The notes under the pieces are model-generated. The model did not search any database, was not told where the DNA came from, and worked only from the letters and a program-made list of their open reading frames with translations. DNA of 64,000 nucleotides from an uncultured Gammaproteobacteria bacterium (GTDB taxonomy: Bacteria; Pseudomonadota; Gammaproteobacteria; Steroidobacterales; GCA-2729495): assembly GCA_937921935.1 (NCBI GenBank), contig CAKZWQ010000026.1:1-64000 (forward strand). Reading direction: 5' to 3'. The translations under genes were made by a program, and so were the position numbers. Below are positions 9,747-15,116 of the stretch, one piece after another (within the stretch, counting starts at the first letter, position 1; each line of letters starts with the position of its first letter).

Positions 9747-10493
9747 ATGCACTGGTTCATTCGCGTTTTAGTTATGGTTGCGCCCCTGACGATAACAGCT
9801 TGCGTCACCGAGCAGCAGGCTGTCAGGGAGGGTGAGGGCGCCTTCGATTCGATGCGCCAGGAGATGCTCGAGACTAATGATCTGGCGACCCGGGCGTATG
9901 TGACTTGTATCGCGCAAGCGATCGTTGCAGAAATCGGCCCGCCGTATGACAGTCTCGATTGGGAAATCGTCGTTTTTGAAGACGCAAGCGTCAATGCTTT
10001 CGCGTTACCCGGGGGCAAAATCGGGGTATTCACCGGAATTCTGAGCGTCGCCGAGACGACGGATCAGCTGGCCGCCGTCATCGGCCACGAGGTTGCGCAC
10101 GTAACAGAGCGACACTCTGTTGCCCGCATGAATCGGGCGATGGCTGCCAATGTGGGTGTCACCGTTGCCGATATTTTTAACCCGAATGCCGGCACCGCAG
10201 CGGGCCTGTTGGCTCAATACGGAATCTTGTTGCCCTACGGACGCGGGCAGGAAAGCGAGGCCGACGTCGTAGGCTTGAAGTATATGGCCAAGGCCGGCTT
10301 CGATCCTCGCGCCAGTGTCGATTTGTGGAAGAACATGGAAAGCAACAAGTCCGGGGCACCACCGGAATTCATGTCGACCCACCCCTCAACCAGCACCCGC
10401 ATCAGTGATCTGATTGGTGAGTTTCCGATCACCCTGACCCTGTTTAATGAGGCTCGCGCCGAGGGGAAACGTCCTGCCTGTCGTCGTCCCTGA
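9747..10493 (+). CDS. M48-family metallopeptidase lipoprotein
   Basis: This is a zinc metallopeptidase likely anchored to the outer membrane. The start at 9747 has GGAAGGAG upstream and yields 248 residues with a lipobox ending ITAC (Cys19). The HExxH zinc motif is HEVAH at 114-118, and the third ligand lies in ESEAD (about 169-173). The closest families are LoiP/YcaL-type peptidases that handle damaged outer-membrane proteins. It overlaps the start of the downstream L,D-transpeptidase gene by 47 bases, which suggests coupled translation. The longer frame from 9600 lies within sohB and is not the real start. Confidence 0.9.
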   Translation: MHWFIRVLVMVAPLTITACVTEQQAVREGEGAFDSMRQEMLETNDLATRAYVTCIAQAIVAEIGPPYDSLDWEIVVFEDASVNAFALPGGKIGVFTGILSVAETTDQLAAVIGHEVAHVTERHSVARMNRAMAANVGVTVADIFNPNAGTAAGLLAQYGILLPYGRGQESEADVVGLKYMAKAGFDPRASVDLWKNMESNKSGAPPEFMSTHPSTSTRISDLIGEFPITLTLFNEARAEGKRPACRRP

Positions 10494-11574
10494 TCTGTTC
10501 CGTCCCTGCCTTGTCCTGGCTGCAGCGGCCTTGCTGGCCGGATGTGGCACGCTAGGCTTGGGGAGCGGCGACCAACCGGCGGTGGACAGGCAGGACTCGA
10601 CTGTTTCTGCCGAGCCTCAGCCGCCGTTGGATGCCAATCTGTTTGTCCTGGATGCCAACCGGGGTGTCGTGGGCGAGTTACAGGTCACCGTGGCCCGGGC
10701 AGAAGACACTTTCGTTGAATTTGCCCGGACCTATGGCCTGGGCTTCGACGAACTGGAAGCCGCGAATCCCGATGTGGATCCCTGGCTCCCCGGCGCCGGT
10801 ACGAAAATCGTTCTGCCGACGCGCTTTTTGTTGCCCAGGGCACCCCGCGAGGGCATCGTGCTGAACGTTGCCACGAAGCGGCTGTTCTATTTTCCGCCGG
10901 CGGTGCCCGGTGTGCCGGCGATTGTGCAGACTTATCCCATTGGGATAGGTCGGACCGGCTGGTCTACGCCCACTGGTGAGACCAGCGTCACGGGCAAGGC
11001 CCGCGATCCTGTCTGGTATGTGCCGGCCTCCGTACGCGAAGAACATGCGGCTATGGATGATCCGCTGCCCGCGCAGGTTCCACCCGGGCCCGATAATCCC
11101 CTTGGCAACCGGGTCATGCAGCTGGGTTTGCCCGGCTATCTGATTCATGGCACCAACAAGCCGGCCGGCGTCGGGATGCGTGTCAGCCATGGCTGCGTGC
11201 GGCTGTTTCCTGAAGATATCGAGTACCTCTTTGACCAGGTGCCTACCGGTACTGCTGTGCGTATCGTCAATCAACCGGTGCTGCTGGCTCGCGACGACAC
11301 TGACCTGCTCCTGGAGGTGCATCCGCCCCTGGAAGAGAATGCGGATACCTGGCTCGACGATTTACCGCCCCGTCTGCAACGAGCCCGGGCATCCCTGGGA
11401 GACAGTCAGGCAGCTATCGACTCTTCGCGAGTGGATGAGATCATCGCCCAGGCCCGTGGCTTCCCCGTTTCGATACTGGCGGGCGGGTCGGATGCTGATG
11501 CCCAGCTTCGTCGTGCGCGCCGTGCGCAGAACGTGATCGTTCACCAAGAGCTTGCCGAAGTCGCTGATCAGTAG
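10447..11574 (+). CDS. L,D-transpeptidase lipoprotein with LysM-like module
   Basis: YkuD/ErfK-type enzymes form 3-3 cross-links in peptidoglycan or attach lipoproteins to it. This 375-residue protein has a lipobox (LLAGC, Cys33), a LysM-like segment (about 78-125) and the YkuD catalytic domain (about 135-275). In that domain lie the upstream His234 (IHGTNKP) and the SHGCVRL motif (247-253) with nucleophile Cys250. The C-terminal about 90 residues are acidic and helical. It follows the M48 peptidase gene with overlap. The tail-sheath homologue starts 57 bases downstream on the same strand. Confidence 0.92.
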   Translation: MRLAPRGNVLPVVVPDLFRPCLVLAAAALLAGCGTLGLGSGDQPAVDRQDSTVSAEPQPPLDANLFVLDANRGVVGELQVTVARAEDTFVEFARTYGLGFDELEAANPDVDPWLPGAGTKIVLPTRFLLPRAPREGIVLNVATKRLFYFPPAVPGVPAIVQTYPIGIGRTGWSTPTGETSVTGKARDPVWYVPASVREEHAAMDDPLPAQVPPGPDNPLGNRVMQLGLPGYLIHGTNKPAGVGMRVSHGCVRLFPEDIEYLFDQVPTGTAVRIVNQPVLLARDDTDLLLEVHPPLEENADTWLDDLPPRLQRARASLGDSQAAIDSSRVDEIIAQARGFPVSILAGGSDADAQLRRARRAQNVIVHQELAEVADQ

Positions 11575-11631: not shown

Positions 11632-13179
11632 TTGTTGGGTTGCGGTGAGCTGGAATTGTCAGACGCTGCGTCAAGTGGGATTTTCGTGGTCGAGGGAGCG
11701 CCGGCAGGTGCGCCTATTGAGCTGTATCGTGAGACCGTGGCGGCCTTCATTGGCCCGACGCCCCGGGGCCCGGCGGACATGCCCGTGGCCGTGCGCAGCG
11801 TGGGAGAATATCTGCAGCGCTTTGGTTCCCCCGACAAACCGAGCCGGCTTGAACAGTATCTGACACGCTTTTTTGACAATGGCGGTACGCTGGCCGTGGT
11901 GGTTCGGGTCTGCCCCACCTGCCGCCCCAACGAAATTCATTTGCCGACGGCAAGCGGCGACATCATTCTGGAGGCCCTGCACCCGGGTCCTCTGGAGCAT
12001 CTTCGCGTCGCCGTCGACTACGATCAGATTCCTCTGGACGCCGACAGTCATTTCAACCTGACTATCCATCGTCTGGCGGGGTCGAACCAGCGTATGGTGA
12101 TCGAGCAGGAAATCTTTCCGGCTGTGTCGGCGGATCCCGAAACCGCCGATTTTGTCGGCCACGCCTTGCTGCGATCCGCCTTGTTGCGCCTGCGCGAGGA
12201 GGGTCCCGGCGAGCGCCCCCAACTGACCCTGGGCTCCGGCGCGAGCACAGGCAGTGACTATGTCTATGCCGATGGCGTTGGCGGCACGCCGCAGTCGCCG
12301 TCGGACTATGACCTGATCGGCAGCATTAGCGAAGGCACGGGCCTGTACGCGCTGGAGCAACTGCCCCGCATTGATTTACTTTGCATCGTGCCCCCGGAAC
12401 CAGGCCGCAGCCTGGGCCCGGTGGCGCTGTTCGCCGCTGAGCGCTACTGCCGCGAACGCCACGCCCTGCTGCTGACTGGGCCCCCGGCTTCCTGGCAACT
12501 GCCCTGCGACGTACTGGCCGATCAGCAACGCCGGGAATTCGCCAGCCCCAATGTGGTCACCTGTTTTCCTGCGCCAGGTGACGGCAGTGTGCTGGGGGCG
12601 CTGGCCGGTGCACTGGTTTCCCGTGATGCAGCCGGCGCAGTCTGGTCATCGGTGACTTCAGAACCCCTGAACCTGCGCTGTCCCTGGCAGTCACAGCTGA
12701 AACTTCATGACAGTGATGTGTCGGCGCTGATTCGTGCCGGGGTGAACCCGCTGACCGTCGCCGGCCCCGGCCGGATTCAACTGCATGGTGGCGTGACGAT
12801 GGCACGCGGTTCCGGCCTGCCACCTGAATGGGGTGAACTGCGGTGGCGTCGCACGGCTTTATTCATTGTTGCGGGCATTGTGCACAAGAGCCGCTGGATG
12901 TTGTTCAGCGATATGGGCACCGATGACGCCATGGAGCTCTATGACAAGGCGCAGAATTTTTTCCGCGGCTTGCATGCCGCGGGCGCGCTGGTGGGCAACG
13001 GTTCAGGCGATGCATGGTTCTTAAGGCGCCCGCTGATCAGTGAGGGCCGGATCGACATGGATTTTGGTCTGGCCTTGCGCCGCCCGGGAGAATTCGACAG
13101 TTACCGGCTGACCTGGGTAGGTGGCGTCTGCAAGCTTCGTGAACTGGGTTGGCAGCCAGCCCTGGCAACGGCCAGCTGA
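11632..13179 (+). CDS. Orphan phage-tail-sheath-like protein
   Basis: The approximately 515-residue protein matches contractile tail sheath proteins along its length. The N-terminal insertion/beta domain reads SGIFVVEGAPAGAPI, then TVAAFIGPTPRGP, then a steering segment ending in LTRFFDNGGTLAVVVRV. The C-terminal domain contains the RRTALFIVAGI...FFRGLHAAGALVG and SEGRIDMDFGLALRRPGEF segments typical of the sheath core. The start codon is uncertain (TTG at 11632, 11635 or 11656, no ATG). No tube, baseplate, spike, ClpV or terminase gene lies near; upstream is a cell-wall transpeptidase. It has no frameshift and looks maintained. A role as a domesticated sheath, filament or regulatory protein is speculation. 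Confidence 0.8.
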   Translation: MLGCGELELSDAASSGIFVVEGAPAGAPIELYRETVAAFIGPTPRGPADMPVAVRSVGEYLQRFGSPDKPSRLEQYLTRFFDNGGTLAVVVRVCPTCRPNEIHLPTASGDIILEALHPGPLEHLRVAVDYDQIPLDADSHFNLTIHRLAGSNQRMVIEQEIFPAVSADPETADFVGHALLRSALLRLREEGPGERPQLTLGSGASTGSDYVYADGVGGTPQSPSDYDLIGSISEGTGLYALEQLPRIDLLCIVPPEPGRSLGPVALFAAERYCRERHALLLTGPPASWQLPCDVLADQQRREFASPNVVTCFPAPGDGSVLGALAGALVSRDAAGAVWSSVTSEPLNLRCPWQSQLKLHDSDVSALIRAGVNPLTVAGPGRIQLHGGVTMARGSGLPPEWGELRWRRTALFIVAGIVHKSRWMLFSDMGTDDAMELYDKAQNFFRGLHAAGALVGNGSGDAWFLRRPLISEGRIDMDFGLALRRPGEFDSYRLTWVGGVCKLRELGWQPALATAS

Positions 13180-13235
13180 AGGCAGGGGGCAGCAAAAGTA
13201 CCCGGCAACAGGCTCCCGCCCAGGTACACGTGGCT

Positions 13236-13736
13236 ATGGCAGCACTTTATTTCGCCTACGGTTCGAATATGCATCCTGGTCGTCTGCGAACCCGACTTGG
13301 CTCAGCCTTTGCTATAGATACAGCCCGTCTGATCGATTATCGACTGGCATTTCACAAACGCGGTGCGGATGGCTCCGCTAAGGGTGATGTTGTGCCGGCC
13401 GTGGGCGAAGAAGTATGGGGCGTCCTGTACCGGCTACATCCCCGCGATGCAGTCATGCTGGATCAGATCGAGGGGCCTGGTTATAGCCGCTGCAGCGTCG
13501 TCGTAGAAAGCAGCACGGCAGACGGGCAGGTTGAGGCCTTCGCTTATCGGGCTCGGGCCACTGCAATTGCTCTTGGTCTGCAGCCTTTCAGCTGGTATCT
13601 GGACTTTCTTCGCGAGGGCGCCCGGCATCATGGCCTGCCGCGTCTTTACACCGCGGCCCTGGAGGAAATCCCGGTCATTTCGGATCCGGACCCGGTGCGT
13701 CATCGCCGTGCCCGCTTGTTGCTGGAATCAGCCTGA
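13236..13736 (+). CDS. Gamma-glutamylcyclotransferase-like protein
   Basis: This 166-residue protein has the cyclotransferase nucleotide-loop-like motif YFAYGSNM (5-12) and the catalytic glutamate in QIEGPGY (Glu79). It belongs to the GGCT/AIG2 superfamily, whose members release 5-oxoproline from gamma-glutamyl compounds or modify amine adducts. The substrate cannot be told from sequence. I start it at the ATG at 13236 because the YGSN strand normally begins within the first few residues. It lies 56 bases after the tail-sheath gene on the same strand, so co-transcription is possible. Confidence 0.82.
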   Translation: MAALYFAYGSNMHPGRLRTRLGSAFAIDTARLIDYRLAFHKRGADGSAKGDVVPAVGEEVWGVLYRLHPRDAVMLDQIEGPGYSRCSVVVESSTADGQVEAFAYRARATAIALGLQPFSWYLDFLREGARHHGLPRLYTAALEEIPVISDPDPVRHRRARLLLESA

Positions 13737-13817: not shown

Positions 13818-14453
13818 ATGAGTACCGGGCCCCAACAGGTCGATGGGCTCCAGCCTGTCGCCAGTCTCCAGGAGTTCTTTAGGGACTCCGTCGATTCCGC
13901 CATGGCCGCCAATCGGGTGGTGCTGGATGAGCAGGCGTCCCACTATGTTGTTTGCCTGCTGACACTATTCGCCCGCTCCGAAGACTTCTACGAAGTGGGC
14001 GAAGATGGTCTGCAACTACGTCCGCTAGCATTGATGCTTGCCGACGCGGCGGACGCGCCCACCGATGAAGCTCGTTGCTTCGCTTTGCAACGGGTCGGCG
14101 ATGTCGCTCTGTTCATTGCTGGTTTCTTTGAGGATTTTCTGCAACGTGCCCCGGTGGATATTGGCTACTACGTAAGAATGGGTGGCAGCGCCTATTGCAC
14201 CCTGTCCGGAAGCATTCGCGGGACATTGCGCGGGCGCGTGATGGGCGAGGTCTTCGCCGAGCTCGGCGCGAAATTCACTCCGATGGTGGATGTGCTGAAC
14301 GAAGTCCGTGACTCCGCCCGGGGTACCCGGGCCGAAGATGCCCTGCGCTGGTATGAAGCCTGGGTTCGCACCGGCAGCCCGCGCGCGGCGCGACTGTTGC
14401 GTGAGCAGGGAATTCATCCCCTGGACTCAGCCCGAACGGGCTACGAGCACTGA
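13818..14453 (+). CDS. Conserved hypothetical protein (211 aa)
   Basis: I do not recognise this soluble, mainly helical protein. It has no signal peptide or membrane segment. Conserved-looking features are a helical N-terminal region (VVCLLTLFARSEDFY), a central SAYCTLSG segment with a Gly-rich turn, and a C-terminal helix ending in RAARLLREQGIHP. The gene is preceded by an AT-rich inverted repeat and followed after 9 bases by another unknown gene, with which it clearly forms a pair. It could be cytosolic and part of a two-protein system, but nothing in the sequence fixes a role. Confidence 0.65.
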   Translation: MSTGPQQVDGLQPVASLQEFFRDSVDSAMAANRVVLDEQASHYVVCLLTLFARSEDFYEVGEDGLQLRPLALMLADAADAPTDEARCFALQRVGDVALFIAGFFEDFLQRAPVDIGYYVRMGGSAYCTLSGSIRGTLRGRVMGEVFAELGAKFTPMVDVLNEVRDSARGTRAEDALRWYEAWVRTGSPRAARLLREQGIHPLDSARTGYEH

Positions 14454-14462
14454 GCGTAAAGC

Positions 14463-15116
14463 ATGCTCTGCGCCTTGCAGGATTTTCTCACTCGCCTCTA
14501 CGGCATTGATGCACCAGCCAACGTGCTGGACTATCTCATTACTGACGAACGTCAGGCTCGGGCACTGGAGGGCGAGGGCGGGCGAGCCACGGAAGAAAAA
14601 CTCCTGCTGACGGAGCAGGATGACGAACTGCACCTGTCCCTCTACCTGGATGCGGCTTTACTGGAACGCCTGAGTGAGCGAGATCCTCTTGAAGAGTTGG
14701 GTGTGGCGAATCTCGAAGACTTCTGCAAGGTGCTGGAAGGTCTGAGTCACTTTAACTATATGACCTGGAATGCGTCGGCGGATCGTCGCGTCACCCTGCT
14801 TGAACTGGAGTTGCAGGCAGAGATCGACAAATATCTGGGTGCGCGCACCCTTGCTACCCAGCAGCAGCGGCCGGAGCTGGCCGCTGCCCTGTTACCCCTG
14901 ATGTTCGAGTCGCCCCAGTTTCAGCCCGGGCTGTCCGCCGAGGAGCAGGAGCGCTACGAAAGCGCCGCCCGCTTTGCCGGCTGGTACTGCCGAAGCCTGG
15001 AGGCCCGCTTTGCCGCGGGCCTGCCGGGCGGCGACATGCTGCGCGAACTCAGAACTTTCTATCGCCTGCCCCAGCCGGGCAAACTCAGCCACATCCATAC
15101 CACCGCTTTCGCCTGA
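14463..15116 (+). CDS. Conserved hypothetical protein (217 aa), pair partner
   Basis: This soluble, acidic, helix-rich protein has no signal or membrane segment and no family I can name. Its N-terminal half contains ELHLSLYLDAALLERL and a following LEDFCKVLEGLSHFNYM segment. The C-terminal half has an RRVTLLELELQAEIDKYL helix and ends in RTFYRLPQPGKLSHIHTTAF. It starts 9 bases after the preceding unknown gene, so the two are probably translated from one message and may form a complex. The paired layout is seen directly; any function is unknown. Confidence 0.65.
   Translation: MLCALQDFLTRLYGIDAPANVLDYLITDERQARALEGEGGRATEEKLLLTEQDDELHLSLYLDAALLERLSERDPLEELGVANLEDFCKVLEGLSHFNYMTWNASADRRVTLLELELQAEIDKYLGARTLATQQQRPELAAALLPLMFESPQFQPGLSAEEQERYESAARFAGWYCRSLEARFAAGLPGGDMLRELRTFYRLPQPGKLSHIHTTAFA

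Follow-up and report, generated by a model that had tools for sequence, protein, structure and literature searches.

An order of Gammaproteobacteria encodes a lone, intact contractile-sheath homologue in which the pattern of constraint is the reverse of that in CIS sheaths: the domain that faces the tube and forms the mesh is relaxed. That this orphan sheath is non-contractile is well supported. We favour, with modest confidence, the overall explanation that it is a domesticated, non-contractile sheath acting through its outer and middle domain, with a job in the cell envelope as the weaker element. Judged by where its sequence is conserved, the orphan would most likely be a non-polymeric binding or scaffold protein that works through its outer domain.

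An intact sheath gene and its predicted fold

The orphan sheath gene is complete. The window, the 64,000-nucleotide stretch analysed here, covers the start of a 105-kb contig from a draft assembly (3.04 Mb, 79 contigs, 94.5% complete). On its forward strand, an open reading frame of 515 codons with a TTG start runs intact from 11632 to 13179, and its product scores 3.1e-16 against PHROG 23 'tail sheath'. The preliminary description had called it an intact sheath-like protein of about 515 codons, and that holds. The real start may lie slightly downstream: close orthologues begin SDAASSGIF... near an in-frame TTG at 11656, and these orthologue starts together with the surrounding sequence suggest that this TTG is used, giving a protein of 507 residues.

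Profile searches place the protein among CIS sheaths. The single window protein matched no Pfam or NCBIfam model, and among 34 sheath relatives PF17482 was matched by 15 and PF04984 by 7 (E<=0.01). A profile of 34 orthologues aligned near full-length with solved CIS sheaths, with its best match at 2e-69 to 8bky, which like 8BL4 is a structure of the Streptomyces Cis2 sheath (PMC10066040).

Structure prediction gave the same answer. The AlphaFold2 model of the orphan (59 orthologues; pLDDT 89.1, pTM 0.89, residues 1-16 at low confidence) matches contractile sheath folds. VIA-align scored it at Z 31.1 to 9gts, the injection-system sheath of Streptomyces coelicolor, and at Z 28.4 over 423 residues to the H. 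borinquense sheath (9ezm), and all 50 structural matches listed were contractile-tail or CIS structures. Because profile, PHROG and structure matches agree, the orphan counts as a sheath protein in both descent and fold, and in its predicted form the complete sheath fold is retained. The AlphaFold2 models are of monomers and are uninformative on oligomers.

Partner genes and inheritance across the order

The orphan status extends well beyond the window. The preliminary description had found no tube or baseplate gene in the window; family searches uphold this and extend it to the entire 3.04-Mb genome. The tube families PF06841 and PF04985 and the tube of the closest CIS type (L132) gave no match in any of the 37 genomes of the window's taxonomic family, its own included, and gp25 (PF04965) was likewise found in 0/37. 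Baseplate_J/gpJ (PF04865) occurs in two of the 37, as does T6SS Hcp (PF05638), which reaches 6/60 genomes across the order; the window's genome has neither. Three family genomes (G001, G007 and G014) are single contigs with the same absence of tube and gp25, so missing contigs cannot account for the missing tube.

The same searches recover real injection systems where they exist. Genomes G042 and G044 have CIS clusters that include sheaths and tubes of their own, and tube matches were found at the true CIS clusters L048 and L145 but at none of the orphan loci. G042 carries both an orphan sheath (L035, contig G042:C34) and a CIS cluster (L145, contig G042:C12) that encodes two sheaths and two tubes along with baseplate proteins; since the two lie on different contigs, the orphan is separate from the injection machine. 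In G056, a second sheath gene (L046:8188-9708, contig G056:C3) encodes a protein that groups with CIS sheaths at 51% identity and has a canonical C-terminus, despite which no tube or baseplate match was obtained in that genome. It is possibly an independent, younger orphan or the remnant of a lost CIS.

A working contractile system, with tube and baseplate encoded elsewhere or too diverged to detect, is very improbable. Although G042 pairs an orphan with a genuine CIS and Hcp turns up in a few genomes of the order, that CIS has its own sheaths, searches for tube, gp25 and Baseplate_J were negative in the window's genome and in nearly all relatives, and tube-facing residues are not conserved among orphans. 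The tube encoded elsewhere that had been proposed for this protein is not supported: apart from Hcp in two genomes, no tube appeared in the window's genome or the 37 of its family.

The orphan is a near-universal, single-copy gene of its lineage. It is present in 36/37 genomes of the window's family, missing only from an assembly that is 78% complete, and in 50/60 of the nearest genomes, which represent the order; 51 genomes matched, and G044 was excluded because its matches are CIS sheaths. In a tree, one branch separated 35 orphans from the CIS sheaths (SH-aLRT 94, quick method), and beyond the order the closer relatives sampled in the class were CIS proteins. At E<=1e-15, a phylum sample yielded matches outside the order in only two Gammaproteobacteria. 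A contig search with a 10-row alignment found relatives in named records that include Steroidobacteraceae, Nevskiales and Chromatiales MAGs and Thioalkalivibrio sp. XN8; the single window protein found no relative in the contig search. Phage records gave no match to the orphan sheath. Plasmid matches were set aside: at 22-27% identity they were weaker than the CIS sheaths. The parsimonious history would be one capture followed by vertical inheritance.

Selection has kept the orphan intact. The median dN/dS over 60 close orphan pairs is 0.17, indicating purifying selection, as the preliminary description had supposed from the open frame. That the gene is a non-functional prophage or CIS remnant is barely conceivable: the lack of known partner genes would fit, but frames are intact across the order, substitutions are constrained and the outer domain is conserved. 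A conserved sheath without an injection machine, under purifying selection, probably does have a new role, as had been proposed. Searches of open-access papers turned up no description of this family; one may exist elsewhere.

Constraint on the orphan and on CIS sheaths

Conservation along the orphan runs opposite to that along CIS sheaths. Our comparison set comprised 15 CIS sheaths of one broad CIS type, 14 with a verified adjoining tube gene and L149 as the fifteenth. In identity-matched pairs (overall identity 40-55%), residues 401-498 are the most conserved part of CIS sheaths (78%) and residues 101-200 the least (28%), whereas in orphans the same segments stand at 40% and 52%. C-terminal minus middle identity is +0.50 in CIS sheaths (0.40 to 0.62) and -0.12 in orphans (-0.29 to 0.10), with no overlap, and these exact figures may shift with wider sampling because they come from 15 sequences, one CIS type and non-independent pairs. 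The dN ratios agree: C-terminal over middle comes to about 1.05 for orphans and, for CIS sheaths, mostly to 0.2-0.4.

Residue retention draws the same boundary. Orphans keep 72-94% of CIS-invariant residues within residues 41-300, falling to 29% in the N-terminal arm (1-40), 31-47% across the segments spanning 301-500 and 36% in residues 431-460, the attachment-helix region as mapped by alignment. The middle and outer part (residues 41-300; 11752..12531, forward strand) is thus the most constrained region among orphans by both identity-matched comparison and residue retention. Residues R147, Q159, Y226 and D227 are specific to the orphan family. The C-terminal domain (residues 341-498; 12652..13125, forward strand), where CIS sheaths have the elements that face the tube and form the mesh, is relaxed. 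This pattern points to the middle and outer region as the putative working part of the orphan.

Elements that bind the tube have changed in kind as well as in rate. In known sheaths, the attachment helix of domain I touches the tube. It is alpha-10 of the sheath protein (PMC6088184), and subunits swap their N- and C-terminal strands to weave the mesh (PMC8894135). In the orphan, the ranges of helix and arms were taken from sequence alignment and the secondary structure of the model, not from a superposed complex; they put the helix equivalent within the C-terminal domain, on the forward strand, at about residues 430-449. Its conserved positive charge is lost, the net value going from +0.87 (sd 0.34) in CIS sheaths to a scattered -0.38 (sd 1.57) in orphans.

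The C-terminal arm has been extended throughout the orphan family. After F488, 13/15 CIS sheaths have 14 residues, whereas 99/100 orphans have at least 20 (median 36.5). In the window protein, this extension past the canonical sheath end (13126..13176, forward strand) is predicted to form a strand at 499-508 and a short helix. Hydrophobic residues at extension positions 502, 505 and 507 are kept in 92-97% of orphans, and models of two distant members predict an extra strand directly after that of the C-terminal arm, consistent with a strand that folds back as a hairpin within the same chain. Many family orthologues end in a WQPG-x-ALA-[SG]-like sequence (13159-13176 in the window), a candidate short linear motif or C-terminal degron. 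An A-[LV]-A-x ending occurs in 20/100 orphan sheaths, and we rejected it as a general degron on account of this restriction.

The N-terminal arm is better preserved in form than in sequence. The arm (residues 15-38; 11674..11745, forward strand) has largely lost its canonical residues and retains its hydrophobic alternation: positions 17, 19 and 29 are hydrophobic in 97, 89 and 96% of orphans, and arm length is kept in 74/100. Because length and a strand-like pattern are kept, arm exchange and some form of polymer could still occur. The loss of helix charge, the C-terminal extension and the relaxed residues argue for lost tube binding in the orphan family, and less strongly against sheath-type polymerisation.

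A polymer that dispenses with the tube is unlikely, though still credible. The orphan would then form polysheath, either as empty tubules of the contracted type or as a structural cytoplasmic filament. Recombinant phage sheath proteins form polysheath with no other viral protein present, and FV3 gp053 withstands the loss of up to 25 N-terminal residues (PMC6357053); a complete fold and the surviving N-arm pattern would suit such assembly. However, divergence within the orphan family is greatest in the mesh-weaving arms and domain I, and the C-terminal arm has outgrown the length common to CIS sheaths. The self-assembling filament of the preliminary description is weakened by the same features, as the arms and core that would build a mesh are least conserved and the C-arm is predicted to carry an extra hairpin strand from its own chain.

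The domesticated, non-contractile sheath that we favour would have arisen in a few steps. An ancestor of the order may have captured a CIS sheath gene once, and the captured gene would have lost its tube and baseplate partners and become a single-copy, vertically inherited chromosomal gene. Its product would no longer surround a tube as a contractile sheath. It could instead exist in the cytoplasm as a monomer or small oligomer and bind a cellular partner through the conserved outer and middle domain, leaving the former tube-facing and mesh-forming domain as mere structural support, capped by the added C-terminal strand. A job in envelope or peptidoglycan maintenance is a weaker inference.

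Gene neighbourhood and comparison with known systems

One neighbour accompanies the orphan across the order. Upstream lies an L,D-transpeptidase (LDT; 10447..11574, forward strand) with a YkuD domain (PF03734, 2.3e-20), a lipobox-like N-terminus and a sub-cut-off match to the NCBIfam LdtE-like model. Downstream on the same strand are a GGCT/AIG2-like protein (13233..13736; PF13772, PF06094) and two uncharacterised proteins without a family match, UnkA (13818..14453) and UnkB (14463..15116). These neighbours had been named correctly in the preliminary description, which also raised the conservation of their order. The full arrangement holds only within the family, where the GGCT-like gene is often missing all the same; the unknown pair is linked to the sheath only there, and across the order it is the LDT-sheath pair alone that recurs.

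The LDT linkage outlasts its surroundings. Family members largely share the order lipA-sohB-M48-LDT-sheath-(GGCT)-UnkA-UnkB-methyltransferase, and some genera lack GGCT and UnkA/UnkB; in other families the surrounding genes change and the LDT-sheath linkage persists. Of the 87 orphan loci whose upstream sequence reaches 1.6 kb or more, 69 have a same-strand LDT within about 1.4 kb upstream and none has one on the opposite strand. We rejected UnkA/UnkB and the GGCT-like protein as functional partners, their linkage being limited to the family or patchy, with GGCT mostly missing from other genera. A rhomboid-like intramembrane protease gene, recognised by eye, lies near the sheath at L056:4594-5307, with equivalents at L063, L066, L067, L070, L074 and L096; in several loci it sits between LDT and sheath.

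The linkage hints at an envelope role, as the LDT is the one durable neighbour of the orphan. It may reflect function, shared expression or slow decay of an old arrangement. Judged by eye, the N-terminus of the LDT resembles that of a periplasmic lipoprotein and no signal peptide is apparent on the sheath, which makes direct contact between the two hard to picture. The LDT-sheath interval showed no sigma-70 promoter-like site, a result that is weakly informative for this organism. We hypothesize that the orphan serves envelope or peptidoglycan maintenance. The fuller version, in which an order-wide core protein uses its once-variable outer domain as a functional surface and acts with the LDT in envelope maintenance, is a tentative proposal.

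A defensive role fits the neighbourhood poorly. In an anti-phage or anti-tailocin decoy, a defective subunit would poison the assembly of invading contractile tails, for which a retained sheath fold and a presumably cytoplasmic location, where tails assemble, would be suitable. We judge this improbable: the interfaces for co-assembly are largely rewritten, and the gene is linked to an LDT and not to a defence island. Defence genes are patchy, unlike a single-copy, vertically inherited gene in all but one family genome. PADLOC returned no match for the sheath, the LDT or UnkA/UnkB.

Sheath proteins are usually viewed as springs around a tube. A lone, single-copy sheath with inverted conservation across an order indicates that the fold can be retained for another job and offers a clean natural case in which to ask which one. 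For genome surveys, a sheath gene by itself is weak grounds for calling an injection system. If the orphan is a core envelope protein, it would put the sheath fold to use without an injection function; the LDT linkage is the best lead and offers a specific starting point on function.

The orphan shares its architecture with known sheaths and departs from them in context. CIS sheaths of Gammaproteobacteria (such as L132, L135 and L140) are homologous to it over their full length, at about 30% identity and with the same domain order, yet they adjoin a tube gene (14/15) and are conserved in the opposite pattern. The corresponding CIS type (L132, L133, L135, L137, L139, L140) has tubes 82-93% identical to that of L132, in clusters with sheath, ATPase-like and baseplate-like genes, and represents the closest machine relatives of the orphan. 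The T6SS sheath, TssB/TssC (VipA/VipB), is likewise a sheath, with a distantly similar fold, and consists of two cluster-encoded subunits; the window's genome lacks the PF05638 Hcp. The S. coelicolor Cis2 sheath (8bky/8bl4/9gts) and the H. borinquense sheath (9ezm) are among the orphan's best structural matches but, unlike it, are contractile, surround a tube and are encoded within a full gene cluster. Cis2 likewise carries a surface domain, domain 3, which is flexible and unresolved (PMC10066040), whereas in the orphan constraint is strongest in the matching region. Phage polysheaths of T4 gp18 and FV3 gp053 show that sheath proteins can be polymers without a tube (PMC6357053), but they are assembly products of phage proteins, whereas the orphan is a conserved cellular gene.
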